Positions 1 through 10,192 of a stretch of 10,441 bases of DNA are shown here, piece by piece. Numbering within the stretch: the first letter of the stretch is position 1; the number at the start of each line of letters is the position of its first letter. The translations under genes and the position numbers were made by a program. The DNA lies in assembly GCA_011772275.1 (NCBI GenBank), contig WVZU01000414.1, positions 331 through 10,771 on the forward strand. Direction: 5' to 3'. The notes below the pieces were generated by a model. The model saw nothing but the letters and a program-made list of their open reading frames with translations, was not told where the DNA came from and did no database searches. Source of the DNA: Planctomycetales bacterium (lineage in GTDB: Bacteria > Planctomycetota > Planctomycetia > Pirellulales > UBA7805).

Positions 1-2350
1 ATGGGGTCGGAGATCCGACTTGGAGGCGGGATGCGGATACCGCGTCATCCGAAGCGGGAAGGGGCTGCAGAGCCCCGGTGGCCGGATCGATGGGGTCCGG
101 CAGCCAATCGTGGACTTCGGATCCATCCGCCGCCGGCTGGGGTGCGATGTATTCGGCACCGGCGGCATGGTCGCCCAGCGGGATGCCGCTAAAAATATCC
201 GCCCGCAAATCAATCGCCGCTCGGCTCTGCGGATTGTAATGGATTGCCAGATTCACATATTTCAACGCGCGTTCCGCCTCCCCCAGGGCCCAGGCCCGCT
301 GTGCCTTGAGGAAGTAGTTGTGTGCGATACGTCGCTTGGCCAACGGGCTCAATTTTTCGAACTGGACGGCATGCCGATGATGGAATTCCATCGCCGCATG
401 GTTCCCTTCCTGAGTCAGCTCGGTGTCGCCCACAATATGTGGCGTGATCACGACCAGGATTTCGCGGCGATCCAGGGTTTCGGACTTTTGCCGGAAGAGG
501 GGTCCCACGGCGGGCAGGCTGCCCAAGAGGGGGATCTGCGTGGAATTCGACGAGATATCGTCGCGGATCAAGCCGCCGATGATCACGGTCGAACCATCGT
601 AGGCGATGATGTTGGTGGTGACTTCCGTCACTTCCTTGTCGGGCAACGTGAACCCCCCTTCCACACGCACCGAACCGGTCGACAGTTCGGGGTGAATTTC
701 CATCCGGACCAGCCCGTCATTGGAGATAAACGGCCGGATCCGCAACTGCGTGCCGACTTCCAGAAATTCGACCGATTGCGTGGTCGCTGTTTCGGTAACC
801 GTCGAACTGACGTAACCCAATTCGGCACCAATCAGAATTTCCGCTCGCTGCTTGTTCAAGACCAGCAAGCGCGGTGTGGCGATCACGTCGGTATCGCCAA
901 CCGTCTCCAGGGCGTCCAGCAGGAAACTGATGCTGCTGTTGAGGATCCCGACTTTCAGTCCCCCGTCGCTGAAATTCAACTGGCCCAGGGAGAGGGGCGG
1001 ATTGCCGGAGATGATCCGCACGTCGTCATGGTCCTTCAACAACTCGAAGTCCACCCCCAGTTGATTCGAATCGTTTAACTTGACACTGAGGATCATGGCC
1101 TCGATCGCCACCTGCAGCGGTCGCACGTCGACATCGCGGAAGACCCGATCGATCTCCTGCAAGACCGACACATAATCCCGCACCAGCACGACCTCCGCAT
1201 CGGCGTAATTGTCACCGCCGGCATTCGCCGAGTCGGCGCCGATTCCGCTTTCGGCTGGCGCGGTGACACTGACGGTACCCAGCGAGGGGGTCAGCAGCGG
1301 CGTGATCAAGGCCTGCAAATCGGACGCTCGAATGTAATTCGGCCGAAAGATCCGCGTTACGATTTGTTCGACCTCCGCGGGCTCGGTTTTGAATTCTTCG
1401 GGCAAACCGACGTAGATAATCTCCGCTTCGCGGTGATCCACATATCCGGTCGACTTCAGAATTCCGCGGAGGGCGGTCTCGAACGACACGTCCTGCATCG
1501 TCCCGGTGACCGTTCCCTGCACGCTTTTCGTCGCCACAATGTTGCGACCGCTCCCACGGCTCAACAACTCCAGCACTTCGCGAATATCAATATCTTTCAA
1601 TTGCAGCGAAAGTCGATCTTGGCCTGCATGGATCACCTCTTTGTGCGAATTCGGTGTCGCCGGTGGCGCCAGTTCTGGCAAGCGTCGTTGGGACGGGTCC
1701 GTTGTGGTTGACTGGCGAGCGATCTGCCGATCGTCCTCGCGTTGGCGGCGCTCCAGCACCTTGTCCAGCAACTGCATCATCGTGGAAACGGGCAGCGACG
1801 GTTCGCTTTTGTCGACTTCCACCTGTTGGCGAACGGCCGGACGCAGCGTCGCCACAACCGGCTCGCCGGCGGCGGCCAGCGGCATCTCCACCGCGGGGTT
1901 CGGCGACAAACCGATTGGCCTGGCTGGGATCGAGTGGGGTGTGGCAGGTTGGGCGGCCAGGGGGCCGGCCGGGGGCGTCCGTCTCACGGCACCCGACGCC
2001 GATCCGTTGCGGACCGGCCCCGGCCAGGCGGTGGTCGGTGTTGGATCCGCGGGCCCGGAGCCGAGCGGATTGGCCGATTCCCGCTCGATACGCGGGGCCT
2101 GCACCTCCGCCTGCCCGGCTTCGACAAAATCTTCGCCGGTGTCCGCTGCGGTCTCGACTGCCGCCGAGCCGACTGCCGCAGGGCCGACTGCCGCCGGACC
2201 GGCACTCGCCACCTGCGGGGTCGCCGGGGGTTGAAAAAAAGAAAGGGCGATCCGTGAGGAAAGATCGTTGGACGTCGAGAGGTAGACTGCGGCCCCTGCG
2301 CCACAAGCGGCGAAGATCGATAACAGAACGATGCGACCCAGCATGTTCAT
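1..2350 (-). CDS. Type IV pilus/type II secretion secretin (PilQ/GspD/MshL-like), 3' end outside window
   Basis: This gene encodes an outer-membrane secretin, the gated channel through which a pilus or secreted substrate passes. 783 residues are visible and no stop is reached, so the gene continues past base 1. Residues 4-24 are a hydrophobic anchor or signal. Residues 30-240 are a Pro/Ala-rich, low-complexity spacer. Residues 246-315 match an STN/N0 domain (RLSLQLKDIDIREVLELL). Residues 329-408 match a Secretin_N (N1) domain with a disordered insertion at 362-384. Residues 410-640 are the secretin core, with VAIEAMILSV, ATPRLLVLNKQRAEI, STVIIGGLIRDD, IPLLGSLPAVGPLF and EILVVITPHIV. After the core, 665-725 look like a TPR helix pair. 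ATG at 2350 lies 3 nt after GGAAGG; the in-frame ATG at 2344 lies 9 nt after it and is an equally good start. An in-frame TGA lies upstream near 2410. It is the last visible gene of the operon. Confidence 0.95.
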   Translation of the reverse strand, partial: MNMLGRIVLLSIFAACGAGAAVYLSTSNDLSSRIALSFFQPPATPQVASAGPAAVGPAAVGSAAVETAADTGEDFVEAGQAEVQAPRIERESANPLGSGPADPTPTTAWPGPVRNGSASGAVRRTPPAGPLAAQPATPHSIPARPIGLSPNPAVEMPLAAAGEPVVATLRPAVRQQVEVDKSEPSLPVSTMMQLLDKVLERRQREDDRQIARQSTTTDPSQRRLPELAPPATPNSHKEVIHAGQDRLSLQLKDIDIREVLELLSRGSGRNIVATKSVQGTVTGTMQDVSFETALRGILKSTGYVDHREAEIIYVGLPEEFKTEPAEVEQIVTRIFRPNYIRASDLQALITPLLTPSLGTVSVTAPAESGIGADSANAGGDNYADAEVVLVRDYVSVLQEIDRVFRDVDVRPLQVAIEAMILSVKLNDSNQLGVDFELLKDHDDVRIISGNPPLSLGQLNFSDGGLKVGILNSSISFLLDALETVGDTDVIATPRLLVLNKQRAEILIGAELGYVSSTVTETATTQSVEFLEVGTQLRIRPFISNDGLVRMEIHPELSTGSVRVEGGFTLPDKEVTEVTTNIIAYDGSTVIIGGLIRDDISSNSTQIPLLGSLPAVGPLFRQKSETLDRREILVVITPHIVGDTELTQEGNHAAMEFHHRHAVQFEKLSPLAKRRIAHNYFLKAQRAWALGEAERALKYVNLAIHYNPQSRAAIDLRADIFSGIPLGDHAAGAEYIAPQPAADGSEVHDWLPDPIDPATGALQPLPASDDAVSASRLQVGSPTP
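2156..2200 (-). repeat. Three tandem 15-bp units in the secretin spacer
   Basis: Three adjacent 15-bp units (2156-2170, 2171-2185, 2186-2200) differ by a few bases and encode the pentapeptides PAAVG, PAAVG and SAAVE (about residues 52-66). They lie in the disordered spacer between the N-terminal anchor and the STN domain and keep the reading frame. This is likely slippage-derived low complexity rather than a separate element. Confidence 0.7.
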
Positions 2351-2426: not shown

Positions 2427-3158
2427 CTAATGGCTTCCCGTCAAAAAATGAATCCCCTCATGATCGCCAAATGTCGGCAACCGGACGCTCAGTTCATATT
2501 CTTCTCCGCCGCGGGCCAGCACCAGGCAGCCCGGACGGGCGGACACTATCTCGAATTCAAAGTCACCCTGGTCCAGCTGGTAGCGCAGTTTTCTCCTTGA
2601 CCGCGAGGCAGGCATCGTCTCATCCGAAGGGAAACTGTACGTGCGGCCGCTAATTTTGACCACCGTGACCCGCGGGCCCACCAGGGTACCCGTCAGGGTC
2701 ATGCCCAGATTTTCCGGCGTCACCTGACCGGCGGTAACCACGGCCTCCTGCTGCCCCTTCTCGCTGCCCATTCGCCCCGGTTGGGCCATCGCGTCCAGCG
2801 GCGCGAAGGGATCCGGCCTGCCATCGGGCATGGCGGCTGACCGCATCCGCGGATCGTTTGCGATCCGATTCATCAATTCGTCCCAGTCGGTGTTCGCAGC
2901 CGGGGTGGCAGCGGTGGCTGCGGGTGGCCCCGCCTCGGCAGCCACCGCAGCTACCGACGGCGGATCGAGCGAGGCGGTGGCAGGCCTGTTTTCCGCGGAA
3001 AACAGGCTGCCGAGTGCCGGGATCCAGTAGTAAACGGCGACCAGGATCGCCATCCCCAGAAACGCAGCCTTGCCCCTGTTGGCCAATATTTCCCGTGTTA
3101 GTTGTCTGTAAAGTTGATGGTGCATGGATAGGGGGGTCGTGCCTGGACGAGCCGGCAT
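2427..3158 (-). CDS. Inner-membrane connector protein, PilP/GspC-like
   Basis: The 243-residue product has the layout of GspC/PilP-type proteins that link the inner-membrane platform to the periplasmic N domains of the secretin. A cytoplasmic N terminus is followed by one membrane helix (about 31-52), an Ala/Pro-rich linker (58-90), a short charged stretch containing the motif GRPDPFAPL (113-121; DPF-P/L is common in PilP/GspC-type proteins), and a small beta-rich C-terminal domain (about 148-228, starting LGMTLTGTLVGPRV) resembling the HR/PilP beta domain. There is no lipobox, so it is membrane-anchored like GspC rather than a PilP lipoprotein. It starts 29 nt after pilO and is followed by the secretin gene, which is the expected order. 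The ATG at 3158 has only a weak ribosome site; ATG at 3125 (MHHQLYRQ) is an alternative. Function is inferred from architecture and position. Confidence 0.75.
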   Translation of the reverse strand: MPARPGTTPLSMHHQLYRQLTREILANRGKAAFLGMAILVAVYYWIPALGSLFSAENRPATASLDPPSVAAVAAEAGPPAATAATPAANTDWDELMNRIANDPRMRSAAMPDGRPDPFAPLDAMAQPGRMGSEKGQQEAVVTAGQVTPENLGMTLTGTLVGPRVTVVKISGRTYSFPSDETMPASRSRRKLRYQLDQGDFEFEIVSARPGCLVLARGGEEYELSVRLPTFGDHEGIHFLTGSH

Positions 3159-3187: not shown

Positions 3188-3730
3188 CTAATCGGATTTG
3201 CTTTGATTGACCGCAAAAATTACCACATTTGTCTCGCTTTCCAGCAACGCTCCTTCTTTGGCCGGCGCTTGAATGGCCAGCCGATCGATCCACACCGTTG
3301 CTGGCAATGCTTCCAGCTGTCGCAGCATGTGGAACATTTGAGCGAAATTGCCGAGGGTCCCCAGTTGGAGGGGTGTCTGCCTGATGGTTTGCAGGCTGGT
3401 GGTGGTTTGGGGGTCGAAGCGGACGATTTGCACGCCCGATTCCTGGACACTCTGGCTGATCTTGGCCAGGACGGAGGCGGCGTCGTTATCATTTTCTTGC
3501 ATCCACCGCGTCACAAACGATTCTGTCTTTTCCAATTCTTCTTCTTTTTGGAAGATGGCGATTGAGAGGGGACGGGTGCGATCAATTTCTGCCTTACAGG
3601 CTTTTAATTCCGCGCGGCGCCTGGCGAGCTGGGCTTTCGCCGGCAGGAAGAAGACCAGCAAATATCCGATGCCGATCGCTGCCAGTCCCAGCGTCAGCAG
3701 CCAGTTTCCGTAGCGCCGTTTGCCGTTCAT
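3188..3730 (-). CDS. pilO: Inner-membrane assembly protein PilO/GspM-like
   Basis: The 180-residue protein has the PilO/GspM plan: a short basic cytoplasmic tail, one membrane helix (about 9-28), a periplasmic coiled coil (about 31-78, rich in Glu/Lys/Arg) and a ferredoxin-like C-terminal domain (about 97-175). The stretch LGNFAQMFHMLRQLEALPAT (126-145) fits the family pattern in which a helix precedes the strand carrying 'WIDRLAI'. PilO pairs with PilN through the coiled coil and ferredoxin-like domains, forming the periplasmic part of the alignment complex. The start codon overlaps the pilN stop in an ATGA, which indicates translational coupling and equal dosage. The assignment rests on fold-level features and the PilM-N-O order, since sequence conservation in this family is low. 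Confidence 0.85.
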   Translation of the reverse strand: MNGKRRYGNWLLTLGLAAIGIGYLLVFFLPAKAQLARRRAELKACKAEIDRTRPLSIAIFQKEEELEKTESFVTRWMQENDNDAASVLAKISQSVQESGVQIVRFDPQTTTSLQTIRQTPLQLGTLGNFAQMFHMLRQLEALPATVWIDRLAIQAPAKEGALLESETNVVIFAVNQSKSD

Positions 3731-4497
3731 GAGGGATTCTTTCCATCTTCGGGTGGACGGTGATCTTTTCCTGCCTGCTGGTCTGGGATGGGCTTTCCGC
3801 GGATCCCGCAGGCAGGCTGTACGGCGAGGTGGGCGTCGAATCGGGCGATCGATGGCCGGCCATCCGGATTGGGCTCGCTCTCTATCGAATCCAGTTCCAC
3901 CTCCGCAAACAGGGGATCCCGTCCGAGGCGGGAGAGGTAGTCGTGGAAGTGTCGGCTATTGAGCGTCGTGCCGGAGATCCGGACGACCAGTTTGCCTTCC
4001 GTTTGTTTTTTAAGTGACTGCCGATCTGCCTCGGCGGGCACGACCGTCGCGGCGGCCGTTTGCTTGGCAGCTTGATTTTGCGGGGGGCGAGCGGGCACGG
4101 CCCTTTCCCGTTGGACAACGATTTCATCCAGGGACATCGTGGCGGGCAGGGCTTCAATCAGAGCGGCGACGATCTGGGTATGCGGCCAGGGGTGTTCCAG
4201 GTAGACCGCCAGCTGTGCCATGGCATTCAGTTCTGCCAGACGGTTATCCAGGCGCGCCAGGCGGAGGGCTTCGGTCTTGGATTCGGCATGGTGTTGATCG
4301 ATTTCCGCCAGTTGTTTCTCGACCGAGAGGCGCATCCGGTACTGGAACAAGGAAGCCATGGGCAACAAGGTGGCAAAGATGAAGACCACCAGGATTTGGG
4401 AGACCTGCGAGCGGCGGCGCGCGTATTCCTCGCGATAATGGTCCGGCAGAAAATCGATCTGCTGCTGAACTCGCTGTTGGTTCCGTTCCCGCCCCAT
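3727..4497 (-). CDS. pilN: Inner-membrane assembly protein PilN (GspL C-terminal half-like)
   Basis: The 256-residue protein begins with the PilN cytoplasmic motif QQIDFLPDHYREEYARR (12-28; compare the family INLLPxxYR), the segment that docks into PilM. A membrane helix follows (about 31-53), then a coiled coil (56-93) and a ferredoxin-like periplasmic domain (about 105-225). That domain is split by a Pro/Ala/Gln-rich insertion (133-165), so the protein is longer than a typical PilN (around 180-200 residues). Residues 228-256 form a charged, Pro-rich tail. ATG at 4497 lies 9 nt after GGAG; a TTG just before it at 4500 is possible but less likely. It begins 3 nt after the pilM stop and overlaps pilO by ATGA, so pilM-N-O are tightly coupled. 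PilM and PilN are separate here, not fused as in GspL. Confidence 0.88.
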   Translation of the reverse strand: MGRERNQQRVQQQIDFLPDHYREEYARRRSQVSQILVVFIFATLLPMASLFQYRMRLSVEKQLAEIDQHHAESKTEALRLARLDNRLAELNAMAQLAVYLEHPWPHTQIVAALIEALPATMSLDEIVVQRERAVPARPPQNQAAKQTAAATVVPAEADRQSLKKQTEGKLVVRISGTTLNSRHFHDYLSRLGRDPLFAEVELDSIESEPNPDGRPSIARFDAHLAVQPACGIRGKPIPDQQAGKDHRPPEDGKNPS

Positions 4498-4500
4498 CAA

Positions 4501-5556
4501 TCAGTTCTCCCCGCGCAGTGCCAGGCCGGTAGCGATCGACCATTGGGACCGCCGCCGCGTCTCGCCACGGTCGTTCAGACCACGGAACGGATCCCCCAGC
4601 TGGCAGGGAAGTCCCAAGCGGCGCCCCAGCCAATCCACCAGCTCCTCGCTCGCCTCGCCACCACTGATAATCACCCGTGACAGGCCTTGCTGGCGAAAGG
4701 TGACCCCGTAGTAGCGGACGCACAAGGAGAGTTCACTGCAAATCCGGTCGCAGACCGGCCGCAGCGCCTGCTGGATGGCCGTGATCATTTCCGGATCTTG
4801 CTGATCACGTCGGCGGTCGCCGTTGTGCATCCGCAGCATGCCAGCGGCCGCCGGATCCATGCCCAGGCATCGGGAGACGGCTTCATCCATCTGGCGTCCC
4901 CCCACGTCCAAATATTTGACAAACAGGGGCGCTTCCCCTTGTGCGATCACCACCAAACTTTCGCCGGCGCCGATATTGACCAGCATGGAGCAGCAATTTT
5001 GATCGTGGGACCTGCGAAATTGGGAGGCGTAGCTGCGGACCAGAGCAACCGGCTCGACATCCACAGCGATCGGTCGCAGTCCCACGTCGACAATCGGCTG
5101 CAGGAACGCTTTTAGCTGATCCCGATGGCAAGCCATGAGGACAATTTCCCGCCGCATCGAGTCGCCGTGCCGCACATCGGCAGCTTCCAGATAACGCAGC
5201 TCGGCCTCGTCCAGCGGAAACGGCAATTTCCCCTGGGCCTCTTGGCGAACAACGTTGGCCAGATCGATATCGGGCGAGCTGGCGACGCGAATATTCTGGA
5301 TGAAGAGGTCCGCCGCCCCCAGGCAGACCACCGCCTCGCGGCCGTAAAATCGCCGGCTGTCCAATCCCTTGCTCAACGCATCCAGCACCATGTCCGGCTG
5401 CCGGGCAGCATTCCTGTCGGTGGGATGACCCAGCAGGTCCCACCGCGCCGCCTGGGCAACCGTCTTCCGATCTCTGCTCATCTGCACCAGCTTGATCGAG
5501 CTGGTGCCGATATCGACACCGATCGGGCTGTATCGTTTACTGGCAAAACTGATCAT
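4501..5556 (-). CDS. pilM: Actin-like ATPase PilM (GspL cytoplasmic-domain homologue)
   Basis: The 351-residue cytoplasmic protein has the actin/FtsA-like nucleotide-binding plan of PilM at its usual length. Residues 12-24 (IGVDIGTSSIKLV) are the phosphate-1 loop; residues 192-204 (LVNIGAGESLVVI) are the phosphate-2 loop; residues 295-315 (VIISGGEASEELVDWLG...) are the adenosine loop. QEAQGKLPFPLDEAELRY (105-122) is a typical PilM stretch. PilM binds the N-terminal peptide of PilN and couples the cytoplasmic motor to the inner-membrane complex. ATG at 5556 follows a purine-rich stretch (AGAGAGACGAG). The gene lies 32 nt after the GspH-like gene, and pilN starts 3 nt after its stop. No substitutions in the recognisable nucleotide loops are apparent. 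Confidence 0.94.
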   Translation of the reverse strand: MISFASKRYSPIGVDIGTSSIKLVQMSRDRKTVAQAARWDLLGHPTDRNAARQPDMVLDALSKGLDSRRFYGREAVVCLGAADLFIQNIRVASSPDIDLANVVRQEAQGKLPFPLDEAELRYLEAADVRHGDSMRREIVLMACHRDQLKAFLQPIVDVGLRPIAVDVEPVALVRSYASQFRRSHDQNCCSMLVNIGAGESLVVIAQGEAPLFVKYLDVGGRQMDEAVSRCLGMDPAAAGMLRMHNGDRRRDQQDPEMITAIQQALRPVCDRICSELSLCVRYYGVTFRQQGLSRVIISGGEASEELVDWLGRRLGLPCQLGDPFRGLNDRGETRRRSQWSIATGLALRGEN

Positions 5557-5588: not shown

Positions 5589-6188
5589 CTAGGATGCTTT
5601 GCCGTATAAACTGCTGGGCAGATCCCGCTGGGGATCGTGCAGGCGGGCGATCCCGGTCAGCGGATGGATTTCAATGGCCAGGTAGCGGGCTGCGTCCCCC
5701 GCACCGGCGGTCAGCCAGATGATCGTGGGCCCGCTTGGGGCAGTTTCCCCCAGGGGGCCGAATTCCACCTCGGCCGGTTCCGGCAGCGGGTCGCCCTCCA
5801 GCCCGGCGGTAGCGGCGAAGATCGTGACCGATTCCCGGATTCCTGGCAAGGACGTCAGAGACAAAATCTGCTGGTCGGGAGGATCCGAGGGCGACCGGTT
5901 GGGGGACGGTGGTAAGGCGTGAAGGGTCGTGTCGCTACCGCTGTGCTGAATCACCACTTGGTTCAGCGATTGGTTGAAGGTGACCCGATAATGGCTGTTG
6001 AACGTGACCGCCAGATTGCGGGCATAATCCAGCTCGGCAGCCACCACGCGCCCGGCCGAGCGGAGTTGTTCGGCAATGCCGGGGCGCATGTCGGGAATCA
6101 CCAAGGCGGCTACGGTGCTGAGCAGCACCAGCGCGATGAAAATCTCCAGGAGGGTGATACCGGAACGTCTCGATTCAGGATTCCGCAT
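5589..6188 (-). CDS. GspH-like minor pseudopilin
   Basis: The 199-residue product carries a type III prepilin leader: basic RRSG (7-10), predicted cleavage after Gly10, then ITLLEIFIALVLLSTVAALV with Glu at +5. The following helix LRSAGRVVAAELDYARNLAV (42-61) and the strand HYRVTFN match the GspH/FimT pattern of an amphipathic helix leading into a beta domain. A Pro/Ser-rich insertion (91-107) separates the strands. The end (EFGPLGE...IIWLTAG...LAIEIHPLTGIARL) is the GspH-type C-terminal sheet. In type II systems such minor pseudopilins join the I-J-K tip complex to the pseudopilus shaft. It is placed between the small coiled-coil gene and pilM. The ribosome site upstream of ATG 6188 (GGGGCGGA) is weak. 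Confidence 0.88.
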   Translation of the reverse strand: MRNPESRRSGITLLEIFIALVLLSTVAALVIPDMRPGIAEQLRSAGRVVAAELDYARNLAVTFNSHYRVTFNQSLNQVVIQHSGSDTTLHALPPSPNRSPSDPPDQQILSLTSLPGIRESVTIFAATAGLEGDPLPEPAEVEFGPLGETAPSGPTIIWLTAGAGDAARYLAIEIHPLTGIARLHDPQRDLPSSLYGKAS

Positions 6189-6266: not shown

Positions 6267-6512
6267 CTACCTGGCCGGTTGCGGCGCTACGATGACCGCC
6301 AGCTTGCCGCTGCTCAGCAGGGTATTCTGCTCTCTTAGGAGACGATTGAGCTGTTTGAGTTCCTCGATCATGATTTCGCGTTGTTCGGCGGGATTGACAA
6401 ACGGAATCTGCTTGCCGGGTGCCGCCGGACTGGTTCGGTAAAAGCTTAGCACGCACAGGCACAGTACGTTGGCCAGAATCAGCAGCGGCCAGAAGTTGCG
6501 TTTTCGCATCAT
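6267..6512 (-). CDS. Small membrane-anchored coiled-coil protein, unknown function
   Basis: I do not recognise this 81-residue protein. It has a short basic N terminus (MMRKRN), one hydrophobic helix (about residues 8-25, FWPLLILANVLCLCVLSF), a short Pro-rich linker (30-40) and a predicted helix with coiled-coil character (about 42-67, EQREIMIEELKQLNRLLREQ). The topology is that of a bitopic protein with a short periplasmic coiled coil. The start is set by a strong Shine-Dalgarno GGAGG (6518-6522) exactly 5 nt before ATG 6512; the more upstream ATG at 6524 has no ribosome site. It lies between the GspK-like and GspH-like pseudopilin genes, so a role in assembling or anchoring the pseudopilus is plausible but unproven. 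Confidence 0.7.
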   Translation of the reverse strand: MMRKRNFWPLLILANVLCLCVLSFYRTSPAAPGKQIPFVNPAEQREIMIEELKQLNRLLREQNTLLSSGKLAVIVAPQPAR

Positions 6513-6517
6513 CGGAA

Positions 6518-6522
6518 CCTCC
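6518..6522 (-). promoter_or_regulatory. Shine-Dalgarno GGAGG of the small coiled-coil gene
   Basis: GGAGG on the minus strand sits 5 nt upstream of ATG 6512. It decides the start of the small gene in favour of 6512 over the upstream in-frame ATG at 6524, within which this site would lie. Confidence 0.7.
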
Positions 6523-6589
6523 ATGGTGGTGGCAGTGACAGCGGTCTACCGTCTGCAAAGGGCAAAGACGTGCCGCTTTCATAGAATCG

Positions 6590-8803
6590 TTACAGATCGT
6601 CGACCCACTGGACCAAATCCCAGCGAAGAGCTTTATCCTTGGGGTGAGGCACAAAAAGCGGATTACTCCAGTCCTGCCAGTGATAGGTGACCGGCTGCGT
6701 CGCCGGTTTGATCTGGAGCCGCGGTTCGACGAGCAGCCCCTGCTGGGCCTCGACAAATTGCGGAAAGTAAGCCAGCGGACTGTTGTTGGCAACTGCAGCC
6801 AGGAAGTCGTTGGCGCGGCTTAACCACCAGGTTTCCGTTTGCTGCCATTCGTATCGCGATCGCACGCGGAGGGCCCCTGTCGCCAGCCGGCCCTCGAAAT
6901 CACACGCCGTGGTCTGGGACCCCATTTTGATCTCAAATTCATCCCACACCGTGACCATGCCACGCAACACCGCCTCCGCGCCGCTCTCCAGGCGGAGGTC
7001 ATCGCTGACCAGTGCGGAGGGTAGTTCGACGGCAGAGCTGGCATTGAGCAGTGGTGGAATGTAGGCGGGCGAGATGTGCACCTTTGTGCCCGCAATCCGC
7101 AGATCCACGTTGCCCCCCGCACCCATCAGGGTGCCCTGGATCGTCACGTCGTCGTACAGCAGCAGTTCGCCATTGGAATAAAAGAACCCCAGCGGATTGG
7201 TCTGCATGTCGGGCGTGAAAGAGACCCCCGCCAGACTGCTGGCCGGAATCTCTGTGGCCGAGTACACCGGACCACCCGCGTACAGCTGGTAGGTCGGCAC
7301 CATGTCGGGAGGATCGAAGGGAGGGGTGTTGTGGACGGGAATGTCGTTGATCCCGATTTTTTGATCGTCCTCCAGCAGCGACAGGACGGCGGCATCGGTA
7401 GGCGACCGCGGCAAATCGACCGGTCCCTCAAACGTGCGATAATCGCCGGTACCGGCCTGTTGCATGGCTGACAGGTCGCGGAAGTAGCGGGCTCGCGTGC
7501 TGCCGGGCGGATTGTCACCCAGGTAAACCGGTACGAGGGGGTCTGTGGTGATCGTCCCCAACTTGCTGGTCTCGCCAACGAGACCGCCATTCTGGTAGAG
7601 CTTCATCGACGATCCGTCATACACCGCGGCAGCAAATACCCACTCACCGGGCTGCAGTTCCCCGCTGGAGGCGATCAACTCGGTGGTCGTCCCGCCCGTT
7701 TTCAGCAGAAACTGCAGTCGGATCTGGCCGCTGGATTCGGTGGTGCCAAGCATCCAGAAATGGTCGGCGACGGCGGGGCTGGTCGCCTTGGAAATGATTC
7801 GGCCATCGGCATAGTCAAAGTCGTCCGCGCGGAACCATGCCAGGATTGTCATGCTCGATCCACTTAGATCGATCTGTCCCAGGTCGACGTAGTCGTTCAA
7901 GCCGTCGAAGGCGGCCCCTCGGTAATCTCCGGGCACGCCATCGCTGCCCGCCACCGCGCCTTGGTAAGTCCCTTGATGCCGCTTCATCTGATCGACGGCC
8001 GTCGTCGCCTCGGCGGCTTCATTCAGCCGCCACCAGGCGATTGGCCCGTACGAGGCGTAGATGTTGGCCATGTTGTCCTGCACCTCGTCCGAGGGCAAGA
8101 GGGCCGCATCGTAGATCGCTTGCAGCTCGCCGGCAGAAAAAACTCGCGAATACAAGGCTACCTCGTCGATCCCGCCGTCAAACGGCCTGCCGGGGTAAGG
8201 GTAGTCGTCAAAAAACTGCAGCGGTCCCTGCAGGTGCACTGGACCTTCCGCGCGAAAGGGTATTTCCAGATACGTTTTCGCGCTTTGCCATTGAAAAATC
8301 GTGTGGTTCTGCACGTCACCCCATCCAGCCACCGCCGGCGACAGCTGGCGCCGGACCAGCTGGACCACCGCCATCGCCCGGTGCACGGCACGGGCCGAGG
8401 GATGGGCCGGGTCCGCAGAGTAACCGGTGCTGAACAGCGTCACCCGGTAGGGATACTCCTGCCAGTCGGGGTGCGTCTTGGTGATGGTCGTGTCCCCGGC
8501 CACAAATTGGACCTGGTAACTGTCGGTGTTGCTCAGCTGGCCCTCCAGCGTCGTTCCCACTCCAGCCCAGGAAGTCGTATGCATCATTTGCAATGCGGCA
8601 CTCAGTCCGGCGTGGGCCGCTTGTCGGGCCGCTGAGCGTCGAGCGGCGTTGTGCTGCAGAAGCATGGTGGTGGTCTGCGAGCGCATCATGGCATAGGAGA
8701 CCGCCAGCGCCAGGCTGATTACACCCAACACGATTACCACCGCCAGACCGCGACGATCACGAGCAGGTCCGCTAAAGCGACAGATGGGGAATCTTGGGGA
8801 CAT
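6590..8803 (-). CDS. GspK/PilX-like pseudopilin carrying an inserted, permuted LamG domain
   Basis: The 737-residue protein starts as a GspK/PilX/MshP-type pseudopilin: basic PARDRRG, predicted cleavage after Gly19, and the hydrophobic stretch LAVVIVLGVISLALAVSYAM. Glu at +5 is absent, as in GspK. The helix ARQAAHAGLSAALQMM (59-74) is typical of PilX/GspK. Residues 206-434 are LamG-type (concanavalin-like) sequence in unusual order: the domain tail first (RPFDGGIDEVALYSRVF, 206-222), a linker, then the domain front and middle (IAWWRLNEA, FDGLNDYVDLG, GEWVFAAAVYDGSSMKLYQNG, YLGDNPPG). Residues 435-737 resume the host protein, with a beta-rich part (545-640). LamG domains often bind glycans or proteins; a tip adhesin is an inference. 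The ATG at 8803 is 5 nt after the GspJ-like stop; the ribosome site is poor. MshP/MshQ of MSHA pili offers a parallel. Confidence 0.85.
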   Translation of the reverse strand: MSPRFPICRFSGPARDRRGLAVVIVLGVISLALAVSYAMMRSQTTTMLLQHNAARRSAARQAAHAGLSAALQMMHTTSWAGVGTTLEGQLSNTDSYQVQFVAGDTTITKTHPDWQEYPYRVTLFSTGYSADPAHPSARAVHRAMAVVQLVRRQLSPAVAGWGDVQNHTIFQWQSAKTYLEIPFRAEGPVHLQGPLQFFDDYPYPGRPFDGGIDEVALYSRVFSAGELQAIYDAALLPSDEVQDNMANIYASYGPIAWWRLNEAAEATTAVDQMKRHQGTYQGAVAGSDGVPGDYRGAAFDGLNDYVDLGQIDLSGSSMTILAWFRADDFDYADGRIISKATSPAVADHFWMLGTTESSGQIRLQFLLKTGGTTTELIASSGELQPGEWVFAAAVYDGSSMKLYQNGGLVGETSKLGTITTDPLVPVYLGDNPPGSTRARYFRDLSAMQQAGTGDYRTFEGPVDLPRSPTDAAVLSLLEDDQKIGINDIPVHNTPPFDPPDMVPTYQLYAGGPVYSATEIPASSLAGVSFTPDMQTNPLGFFYSNGELLLYDDVTIQGTLMGAGGNVDLRIAGTKVHISPAYIPPLLNASSAVELPSALVSDDLRLESGAEAVLRGMVTVWDEFEIKMGSQTTACDFEGRLATGALRVRSRYEWQQTETWWLSRANDFLAAVANNSPLAYFPQFVEAQQGLLVEPRLQIKPATQPVTYHWQDWSNPLFVPHPKDKALRWDLVQWVDDL
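7500..7507 (-). repeat. 8-bp direct repeat, downstream copy
   Basis: CCCGGCAG on the minus strand marks the downstream edge of the LamG module. It is identical to the copy at 8187-8194, and the bases on either side differ. Confidence 0.6.
8187..8194 (-). repeat. 8-bp direct repeat, upstream copy
   Basis: CCCGGCAG on the minus strand marks the upstream edge of the LamG module, exactly 687 bp (229 codons) from the second copy. Confidence 0.6.
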
Positions 8804-8808
8804 AGAGA

Positions 8809-9618
8809 TCAGCGTGACAATTGGTAATACAAGGCGGCGGATCCGAAGAAGGGGATTACAACTTCCGAGCTGACAGCGGTGCCGGGTTCATCGGCAAGCA
8901 ATTGCAATTCGATATGACAGAGGGACTGTCGCAGGCCCCTATTTCCTCCCTGAATATCCTGAACCCAGGCCAGATCATCCCAGGCCAGCGAACCGGCTTG
9001 ATATGCATCCCATTGGCTGGAAGGAGGCCGCAGACGTTGATGGAAACGGACGACGCCCCGCCGCGCGCCCCCCGACTCGATGGGCATCGTCCGCAGCGTT
9101 GCAATCAGGACCGATCGGTCGACGTCGGCTTTCGCCTTGATCGCAGCCAACTCCGCACGCCAGCCGGCCAGGTCGCTTAAGGGAGGCGTCGCGCGATTGT
9201 CTTGCGACGCGCGGATCTCCACCAATTGCTGGGGGGAGGCCGGATCGGGACAATAGATCACCAATTCGCTGAACAGCGGTGGGCCGGCGGGATTCGCGGC
9301 GGTGCCCAAAGGGCTCCACACCACCAGGGTATCCGGAAAATCCCAACCGTGGACCTGCTCGTGCAGCACAAAGAAACCAGGGAATTCGGCAGTCGCGGTC
9401 GCCCGAAAGACCCGGTTTTGTATCCGCAGCACAGCGACTCTGGCCTGCTGTACCGCAGCGGCGTGACCAAACGTGTAGGCACTGCCCGATTCGACTGCGG
9501 ATGACAGCGCGCCCAGCGAGACCGCCACCATGCCCAGGATGGCGATCGCGATCAGAGTCTCCAGGACCGTCAGGGCCTTGCGGCTGGGGGTGCTATTGCG
9601 GTGCGGGAACATAGGCAT
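8809..9618 (-). CDS. GspJ/MshO-like minor pseudopilin
   Basis: The 269-residue product has a prepilin leader with a basic stretch (TPSRKA) and then LTVLETLIAIAILGMVAVSL, with Glu at +5; the residue before the predicted cleavage is Ala rather than Gly. The helix AAAVQQARVAVLRIQNRVFR and the following beta-rich body (FPGFFVLHEQ, DTLVVWSP, LFSELVIYCPDP) fit the GspJ/PilW/MshO group. The central part (about 148-225) is helix-rich with several Trp residues. GspJ-type proteins form part of the tip complex with I and K. ATG at 9618, or ATG at 9612, lies inside the end of the preceding gene (stop at 9593), so the two overlap by about 20-26 bp without a clear ribosome site; translational coupling is likely. 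The frame stays open further upstream, but that part runs antiphase to the preceding gene and looks non-coding. Confidence 0.85.
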   Translation of the reverse strand: MPMFPHRNSTPSRKALTVLETLIAIAILGMVAVSLGALSSAVESGSAYTFGHAAAVQQARVAVLRIQNRVFRATATAEFPGFFVLHEQVHGWDFPDTLVVWSPLGTAANPAGPPLFSELVIYCPDPASPQQLVEIRASQDNRATPPLSDLAGWRAELAAIKAKADVDRSVLIATLRTMPIESGGARRGVVRFHQRLRPPSSQWDAYQAGSLAWDDLAWVQDIQGGNRGLRQSLCHIELQLLADEPGTAVSSEVVIPFFGSAALYYQLSR

Positions 9619-10192
9619 ATACGCGGCGCAAATTCGCCAGATCTCGTCGGGTTCCGTCCGGATTATCGCGGAGGATCCGCACCTCCACAGCACGGTAGTC
9701 GCTGGCCACGCCCGGATCGAGCCGCAAGGAGTGGTCGGTGGCGTCGACGTAGTAGACTTCAATCTCTTCGCGCCAAGCGGCGAAATAACCGAGCGGCAGG
9801 CGGAAATTGGGATGCCGTAAAAAACCGCCGCTCTCCCCCTGCCCCAACTCCTGGCCCTGGATGTTTTCGACCGGCTGAGCAACGAAGCCGTTGTAATCGT
9901 CGCTGTCGTCGTACCGCGCCCGGCCCTCGCCATTCAATTCCCACGAGCTGGCCCCCAGGGGATATTCGTAAGGCCCCGCGCCGACGGCCGCATAGCGTTG
10001 GCCCATCACCTCGTCAATTAATTGCTCGGCAATCCCCATGGCGATGCTGGTTTCGACGGACACCTGGGTAGTCTGCACCGAACTGGTGAGGGCCAGCATG
10101 ATGGCACCGCCGGCCACAGCCAGGATGGAAATGGCCAGGAGAGCTTCCATCAGCGAGAATGCAGATCGTCGTCCAGCAAGCGGTCGCGTCAT
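9593..10192 (-). CDS. GspI/MshD-like minor pseudopilin
   Basis: The 199-residue product opens with MTRPLAGRRSA, then FSLMEALLAISILAVAGGAI, a type III prepilin signal with Glu at +5 and Ala at -1. The helix ends in GIAEQLIDEVMGQRY (53-67), a hallmark of GspI/MshD-type pseudopilins in which an Ala/Glu-rich helix leads into a small sheet. ARYDDSDDYNGF (92-103) resembles the acidic YDDxDDY stretch of MshD-like prepilins. The C-terminal half (EIEVYYVDA, YRAVEVRIL) is beta-rich. It is the first gene of the operon, with a good ribosome site, GAGG at 10200-10203, 7 nt before ATG 10192. Its end overlaps the GspJ-like start. In type II systems, I nucleates the tip complex with J and K. Confidence 0.87.
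   Translation of the reverse strand: MTRPLAGRRSAFSLMEALLAISILAVAGGAIMLALTSSVQTTQVSVETSIAMGIAEQLIDEVMGQRYAAVGAGPYEYPLGASSWELNGEGRARYDDSDDYNGFVAQPVENIQGQELGQGESGGFLRHPNFRLPLGYFAAWREEIEVYYVDATDHSLRLDPGVASDYRAVEVRILRDNPDGTRRDLANLRRVYAYVPAPQ

Follow-up and report, generated by a model that had tools for sequence, protein, structure and literature searches.

Circular permutations in nature are as a rule deduced by comparing two finished proteins. Among lectins, concanavalin A (ConA) and favin are linked by such a rearrangement (PMC3320104), and inserted domains may themselves be permuted, as cited for insertions in RNA polymerase (PMC13114784). Pilins can carry lectin-like modules: PilC of Streptococcus sanguinis, a modular minor pilin, binds glycans through its ConA-like module (PMC9934059), and the survey of modular pilins in the paper on PilB includes PF13385 among the pilin extra domains (PMC8179133). 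In two large minor pilins, ComZ of Thermus thermophilus and GspK of the type II secretion system, the extra domain is inserted in the pilin fold and a location at the tip has been proposed (PMC6561018). Here we describe a 10,441-nucleotide stretch of DNA (the window) from a Planctomycetales bacterium of the order Pirellulales (assembly GCA_011772275.1, contig WVZU01000414.1, positions 331 to 10,771), in which the gene for a 737-residue GspK-like minor pilin contains a LamG domain with its parts in rotated order. As the best explanation overall we propose, with high confidence, a permuted LamG unit in a minor-pilin loop that came from a tandem array and serves a binding role at the tip.

Read from its sequence and predicted structure, the segment of residues 205–434 is one complete LamG jelly-roll unit, circularly permuted and seated in a single loop of a GspK-like pilin. 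Its landmarks follow one another as GRPFDGG (from residue 205), IAWWRL (from 255) and GDNPPG (to 434). The full-length protein scored 89.6 bits against Laminin_G_3 (PF13385; curated cut-off 27.6), with residues 301–435 aligned to positions 2–128 of the 151-position profile and a second stretch that also passed, and the tail alone (residues 204–240) matched positions 128–150 (E = 0.002). Moving the tail to the end, a check proposed in the preliminary description of this locus, raised the score and gave an unbroken match: 106.0 bits in a single match for the rotated order, compared with 90.5 bits in two stretches for the natural order and 76.5 bits without the tail. The rotated insert covers profile positions 2–150 of 151, so that all parts of the domain are present. 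It also matched 4qvs_A, a solved LamG-like chain from the PDB, in a single run, whereas the natural-order protein matched that chain significantly over residues 256–431, with the tail piece placed in swapped position at only −0.7 bits and marked '?'.

We scanned rotations of the insert, turned in steps of 4 residues, using a profile made from 71 canonical domains only. The inserts came from alignment A1, which used 74 of 90 proteins and left out 16 with LamG only. All 67 inserts scored best after a turn of 32–48 residues (60 of them at 36), gaining 22.4–48.4 bits over the natural order (median 36.8). The 71 canonical controls, which are also the profile's training set, were all best at 0 or at no more than 12 residues from an end. 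The order of parts in the insert is therefore not the canonical order of Laminin_G_3, and the earlier proposal of a permuted LamG inside a host pilin holds for every insert-bearing relative in the alignment.

Residues 200–440, modelled alone with about 10 host residues, were predicted to form a single closed domain with a predicted template modelling score (pTM) of 0.92 and the ConA-like β-sandwich fold. DSSP assigned a strand to residues 209–218, at a predicted local distance difference test value (pLDDT) of 98; the AlphaFold2 (AF2) model has this strand and a helix at 224–235. The tail strand is thus predicted to belong to the LamG unit even when almost no host sequence is supplied. Neither of two contrary outcomes named beforehand was seen: the displaced segment is predicted to contribute a strand to the LamG unit, and a normal-order LamG across residues 254–460 could be ruled out, the match stopping at 435. 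What follows residue 435 is host sequence, because the 41 orthologues without the insert align there. That the two pieces give separate profile stretches would also be expected if two broken LamG fragments simply adjoined each other and formed no folded domain, an idea we consider extremely improbable given that the pieces tile one profile without overlap, that rotation benefits 67 of 67 relatives and that the insert alone is predicted to fold so well. Fold searches with the whole model matched mainly the LamG part. Many of the rows were clostridial neurotoxin receptor-binding domains, which share the common sandwich only (10–18% identity in the compared rows). Queried as an alignment of 28 insert-free sequences, the host part gave no solved relative at E up to 10.

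The loop that holds the insert is empty in many orthologues. The helix that follows it has the sequence SARERYLGDLNAMR in L023, and the loop contains 0–1 residue in 40 of the 41 insert-free orthologues (34 loci and 7 proteins), with 8 residues in L027. Across A1 the insert measures 221–243 residues in the 67 proteins that bear it, and 0–1 residue stands there in the other 7. Set against the empty site, the LamG unit is an extra domain on a pilin, and its extent, nucleotides 7502–8191, agrees to about one codon with the 7500–8194 given in the preliminary description. From alignments and models together, we regard the permuted fold and the clean insertion as virtually certain.

To gauge the spread of the two states, we drew on a search of the window's order, in which 141 of 296 genomes gave any match, many to LamG alone. 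Among the matches listed, the insert-bearing host was found in at least 19 genomes (18 nearly full length, with G002 cut at a contig end), and both host halves without LamG between them in at least 45 genomes of the order; judged by sequence, order-mates of the window often have the loop empty. In 19 genomes of the same class outside the order, with both halves among the matches listed, the spacing between the halves exceeds an empty site's by 16–56 residues and falls short of a filled one's by 174–214 (G473, whose second match begins within the insert region, was left out). This spacing suggests that the empty loop is the older state. Among the 90 proteins from which A1 was drawn, those with a species name are from Blastopirellula and Bremerella, annotated as LamG domain-containing or LamG-like jellyroll fold proteins. 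L013, from genome G092 of the window's order, has the same host row as L040 of Blastopirellula marina, an identity that places this order. An orthologue that lacks the LamG unit (L032:1501-3414, minus strand) has another insert, some 100 residues long (counted at 103), shortly downstream of the LamG site and after DLNAMR; this insert has no Pfam match. The host region around the LamG site may be an insertion hot spot. Very large LamG-bearing proteins in the related genomes G257, G215 and G199 (frames of 10,579, 9,221 and 9,507 amino acids) match query residues 207–436, 238–454 and 197–411, respectively.

To find the canonical domains closest to the insert we used a profile of the rotated inserts. 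The best were the second LamG of two-LamG proteins (P0079, 314.8 bits; P0132, 304.5; P0100, 294.3; P0075, 292.8). Furthermore, a profile of the insert's tail-linker-front stretch matched the LamG-LamG junction contiguously in 22 of the 97 canonical proteins, with the highest scores (61.5–63.6 bits) in P0100, P0128, P0075 and P0079. The canonical set excluded P0166, which is another permuted host, and P0168, which is a fragment of such a host. In 12 of 13 hand-picked two-LamG proteins the insert tail is nearer the second domain's tail than the first's, and tandem pairs with the GDNP...RPFDG loop in both domains occur in P0143, P0149, P0151, P0152 and P0154. These comparisons suggest that the unit quite probably derives from an array of tandem LamG domains and was cut out as one repeat length with its register shifted. 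Cuts at the GDNPPG/RPFDG loop of two neighbouring repeats would yield one repeat length, and because the register is shifted the natural tail-linker-front junction would be kept, so that the chain would close into an ordinary LamG fold with its ends relocated to a different loop. Some observations speak against such an origin: the tail of the first domain fits better in P0136, the two tails differ by just 1.1 bits in P0170, and no intermediate with two LamG units or a normal-order unit was found in the 67 A1 proteins and 26 insert-bearing loci (the sets overlap). In the window's genome, one other Laminin_G_3 domain was present among the matches listed (G000:C398, in a 1411-residue frame); the absence of a donor there means little because the assembly is 84.6% complete.

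A repeat length could have been cut at any register and dropped into a foreign loop in one step, leaving the unit turned end for end on a tip pilin; we offer this route tentatively and think it somewhat doubtful. It might run, for example, via a DNA circle that contains a single repeat and is joined through a short stretch of similarity. Inspected by eye, the loops of host and LamG alike resemble YP/NPxxSxR, a weak similarity. From the order of elements, the displaced 10-residue strand would start at the relocated ends and head towards the original ones, and the unit would hang by the pole opposite its natural termini with the other pole outward. Alternatively, a normal-order LamG tandem might have been inserted and the permutation completed within the host by later trimming of the first unit's front and the second's tail. 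The end product would be identical, and permutation by duplication is a standard model (PMC3320104), but no two-unit or one-side-trimmed host appears in the same proteins and loci and the insert lengths are tight, which makes this course of events rather improbable.

To ask how often the unit was gained, we compared two trees. The host tree, built by a quick method with the insert columns removed, has 93 rows, 52 of them with the insert (60 loci and 33 selected P proteins), and on it the insert needs 4 changes compared with 30.7 in shuffles. For the LamG tree, 127 canonical domains were kept beforehand by score and coverage, and thinning at 70% identity left 126 of 194 domains (55 permuted, 71 canonical); permutation needs 2 changes. 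Neither a forced single insert clade in the host tree (p = 0.477) nor a forced single permuted clade in the LamG tree (p = 0.521) was rejected. The unit thus appears to have been gained once, or a few times, in the window's order. A single gain is opposed by starred host-tree branches that force at least 2 changes, by eight insert-free rows on the insert-bearing side, which require exact losses, gene replacement or repeated gains, and by seven canonical domains that adjoin permuted ones in the free LamG tree, where two origins or a reversal are possible. The starred branches and the interspersed canonical domains would fit several independent insertions of a permuted LamG at the same loop, but a single clade is acceptable in either tree and the loop and cut region are identical across the compared rows, and we consider such repeated insertion unlikely. 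The trees are consistent with one gain and a few losses, or with two to three gains. A contig filed as a Gemmatimonadetes metagenome-assembled genome also encodes a host gene with the insert (L035:6001-8151), and the host tree places it with the other genes that have one; misbinning or transfer would explain this.

The host gene lies in an operon of pilin and assembly genes (Table 1). Six of the seven insert-bearing loci L034–L040 have pilins A and B, the host, pilin H, pilM, pilN, pilO and the secretin in order, and L035 has the host alone. Of the 20 insert-free loci with flanks (L071–L090), 17 have pilM further downstream with the gene order unchanged; the contig of L078 ends too early, and the two small pilins and the host gene are all that L071 and L072 show. 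The listed reading frame of pilin-like gene B probably begins too early, with the true start near residue 110.

Table 1. Features of the window, in window coordinates, with the parts of the host gene listed first
Feature	Position	Strand	Evidence
GspK-like minor pilin gene with permuted LamG insert	6590..8803	-	Open reading frame, 737 residues; orthologues with insert found
Host part 1, residues 1-204: N-terminal helix 20-74 and strands	8192..8803	-	AF2 model; alignment to insert-free orthologues
LamG unit inserted in rotated order, residues 205-434	7502..8191	-	Profile, rotation scan, model, empty-site comparison
LamG tail, residues 205-236, RPFDGGIDEV strand and helix; first here, C-terminal in ordinary LamG	8096..8191	-	
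Linker from original C-terminus to original N-terminus, residues 237-253	8045..8095	-	Matches the junction between LamG1 and LamG2 in tandem LamG proteins
LamG front and middle, residues 254-434, to GDNPPG	7502..8044	-	Pfam profile 2-128
Host part 2, residues 435-737: beta-rich part and C-terminal strands	6590..7501	-	Alignment to insert-free orthologues; model
Pilin-like gene A	9593..10192	-	N_methyl below cut-off; Blastopirellula relative above (27.5 vs 21.2 bits); same place in relatives
Pilin-like gene B	8809..9933	-	N_methyl at residues 118-139, below cut-off; Blastopirellula relative above
Small gene of 85 residues directly after host gene	6267..6524	-	Relatives at this position in many loci, whether or not the insert is present; no Pfam family
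GspH-like pilin (pilin H)	5589..6188	-	N_methyl and GspH below cut-off; both above in Blastopirellula relative
pilM	4501..5556	-	PF11104, 3.1e-30
pilN	3727..4500	-	PF05137, 7.8e-05, 23.1 vs 22.8 bits
pilO	3188..3730	-	PF04350, 6.1e-10
Gene between pilO and secretin	2427..3158	-	In place in many relatives; Blastopirellula relative with weak T2SSB match, E 0.0054, below cut-off
Secretin, runs off window	2..2350	-	PF00263, 7.2e-40; weak GspD-type N0 match below cut-off

The host resembles GspK in its N-terminal part, in its large size and in its place after two small pilins. NF037980 (GspK) matched residues 18–81 with 15.7 bits against a cut-off of 130, which places the host outside that equivalog. 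The same family matched 15 of 19 A2 members (E up to 0.1) and 16 of 28 insert-free members (E up to 0.01), the scores shown being far below the cut-off, and the resemblance sits at the host N-terminus in the rows with a listed range. The label 'GspK/PilX-like' given in the preliminary description is therefore fair but loose: GspK stands through this N-terminal, sub-cut-off match, and PilX falls away, since no PilX family matched. Less favourable to a pilin identity, no Pfam pilin family covering the host was matched, and N_methyl (PF07963) did not match it; RRG-LAVVIVLGV is visible by eye, without Glu5. GspK itself lacks a glutamate at position 5. TafC (NF052521) was rejected as the host family, as it matches best within the LamG part (P0002, 233–419; P0010, 213–248), at scores far below the cut-off. 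Weak Pfam matches of the host look like chance: a single one of the 28 insert-free members had any match at E up to 0.01, to PA2201_N.

Without this glutamate, like GspK, the host pilin would be located at the filament tip, where the LamG unit, anchored through a pair of short connections, would bind glycan or matrix in the manner of the ConA-like module of S. sanguinis PilC. By this analogy, tip display of a ligand-binding module is the likeliest role, to which we give about an even chance. It is weakened by the fact that no sugar-binding residue was identified in the LamG unit, and the fold alone shows no function. The chief rival, which we judge less probable though worth serious attention, is that LamG serves as an assembly or cargo-recognition module of a periplasmic, type II secretion-like pseudopilus and not as an adhesin. 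Consistent with a periplasmic machine, the operon has GspH-like and GspK-like pilins and a secretin with a GspD-type N0 match, weak and below cut-off. T2SSE ATPase matches over cut-off number 12 in the window's genome (several on G000:C147, others on C284, C198 and further contigs), with none on the window's contig. The same operon also houses insert-free orthologues, so the insert supplements machinery that occurs in its absence as well. Set against the periplasmic role are the minor-pilin ConA-like module proven to be a lectin in S. sanguinis (PMC9934059) and the frequency on pilins of carbohydrate-binding extra domains, PF13385 included (PMC8179133).

Circular permutation of lectins, permuted inserts and lectin-bearing pilins are already known. 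What seems new is a permuted LamG within a pilin, together with its empty site and likely source, a combination not met among the papers listed in searches of open-licence literature; judged by titles and the openings of abstracts, none of those listed describes a permuted LamG, and words beginning with 'permut' do not occur in the main text of the modular pilin survey (PMC8179133). Such a permuted domain appears truncated in ordinary profile scans. The locus suggests that a tip-type pilin can acquire a lectin-like module internally and not by addition at an end. If our tentative one-step route were true, cutting repeats at any register would be a ready-made way to permuted inserted domains, although we would not bet on it.

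The differences from the described systems are clear. In S. sanguinis PilC the extra domains are C-terminal, whereas the module here is internal and permuted and its operon includes a secretin. ComZ has a β-solenoid and GspK a helical domain, and PMC6561018 ascribes neither a LamG nor a permuted insert to either. ConA is permuted post-translationally, whereas here the permutation lies in the gene. A close parallel is found in plant aspartic proteases, whose plant-specific insert, the swaposin, is likewise a circularly permuted saposin unit inside another protein; saposin itself is known in tandem (PMC3320104). Like saposin, the LamG domain also occurs in tandem with the same junction, and the host also exists without the insert, in 41 empty-site orthologues. 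By analogy, the LamG insert looks like a bacterial counterpart of the plant swaposin insert, with a β-sandwich lectin-like domain in a minor pilin in place of a small helical domain in a protease. Unlike the swaposin, the present case has both the empty site and the likely source family in hand, and because empty host, filled host and likely source family all exist today, the route from tandem repeat to permuted insert can be traced and tested.
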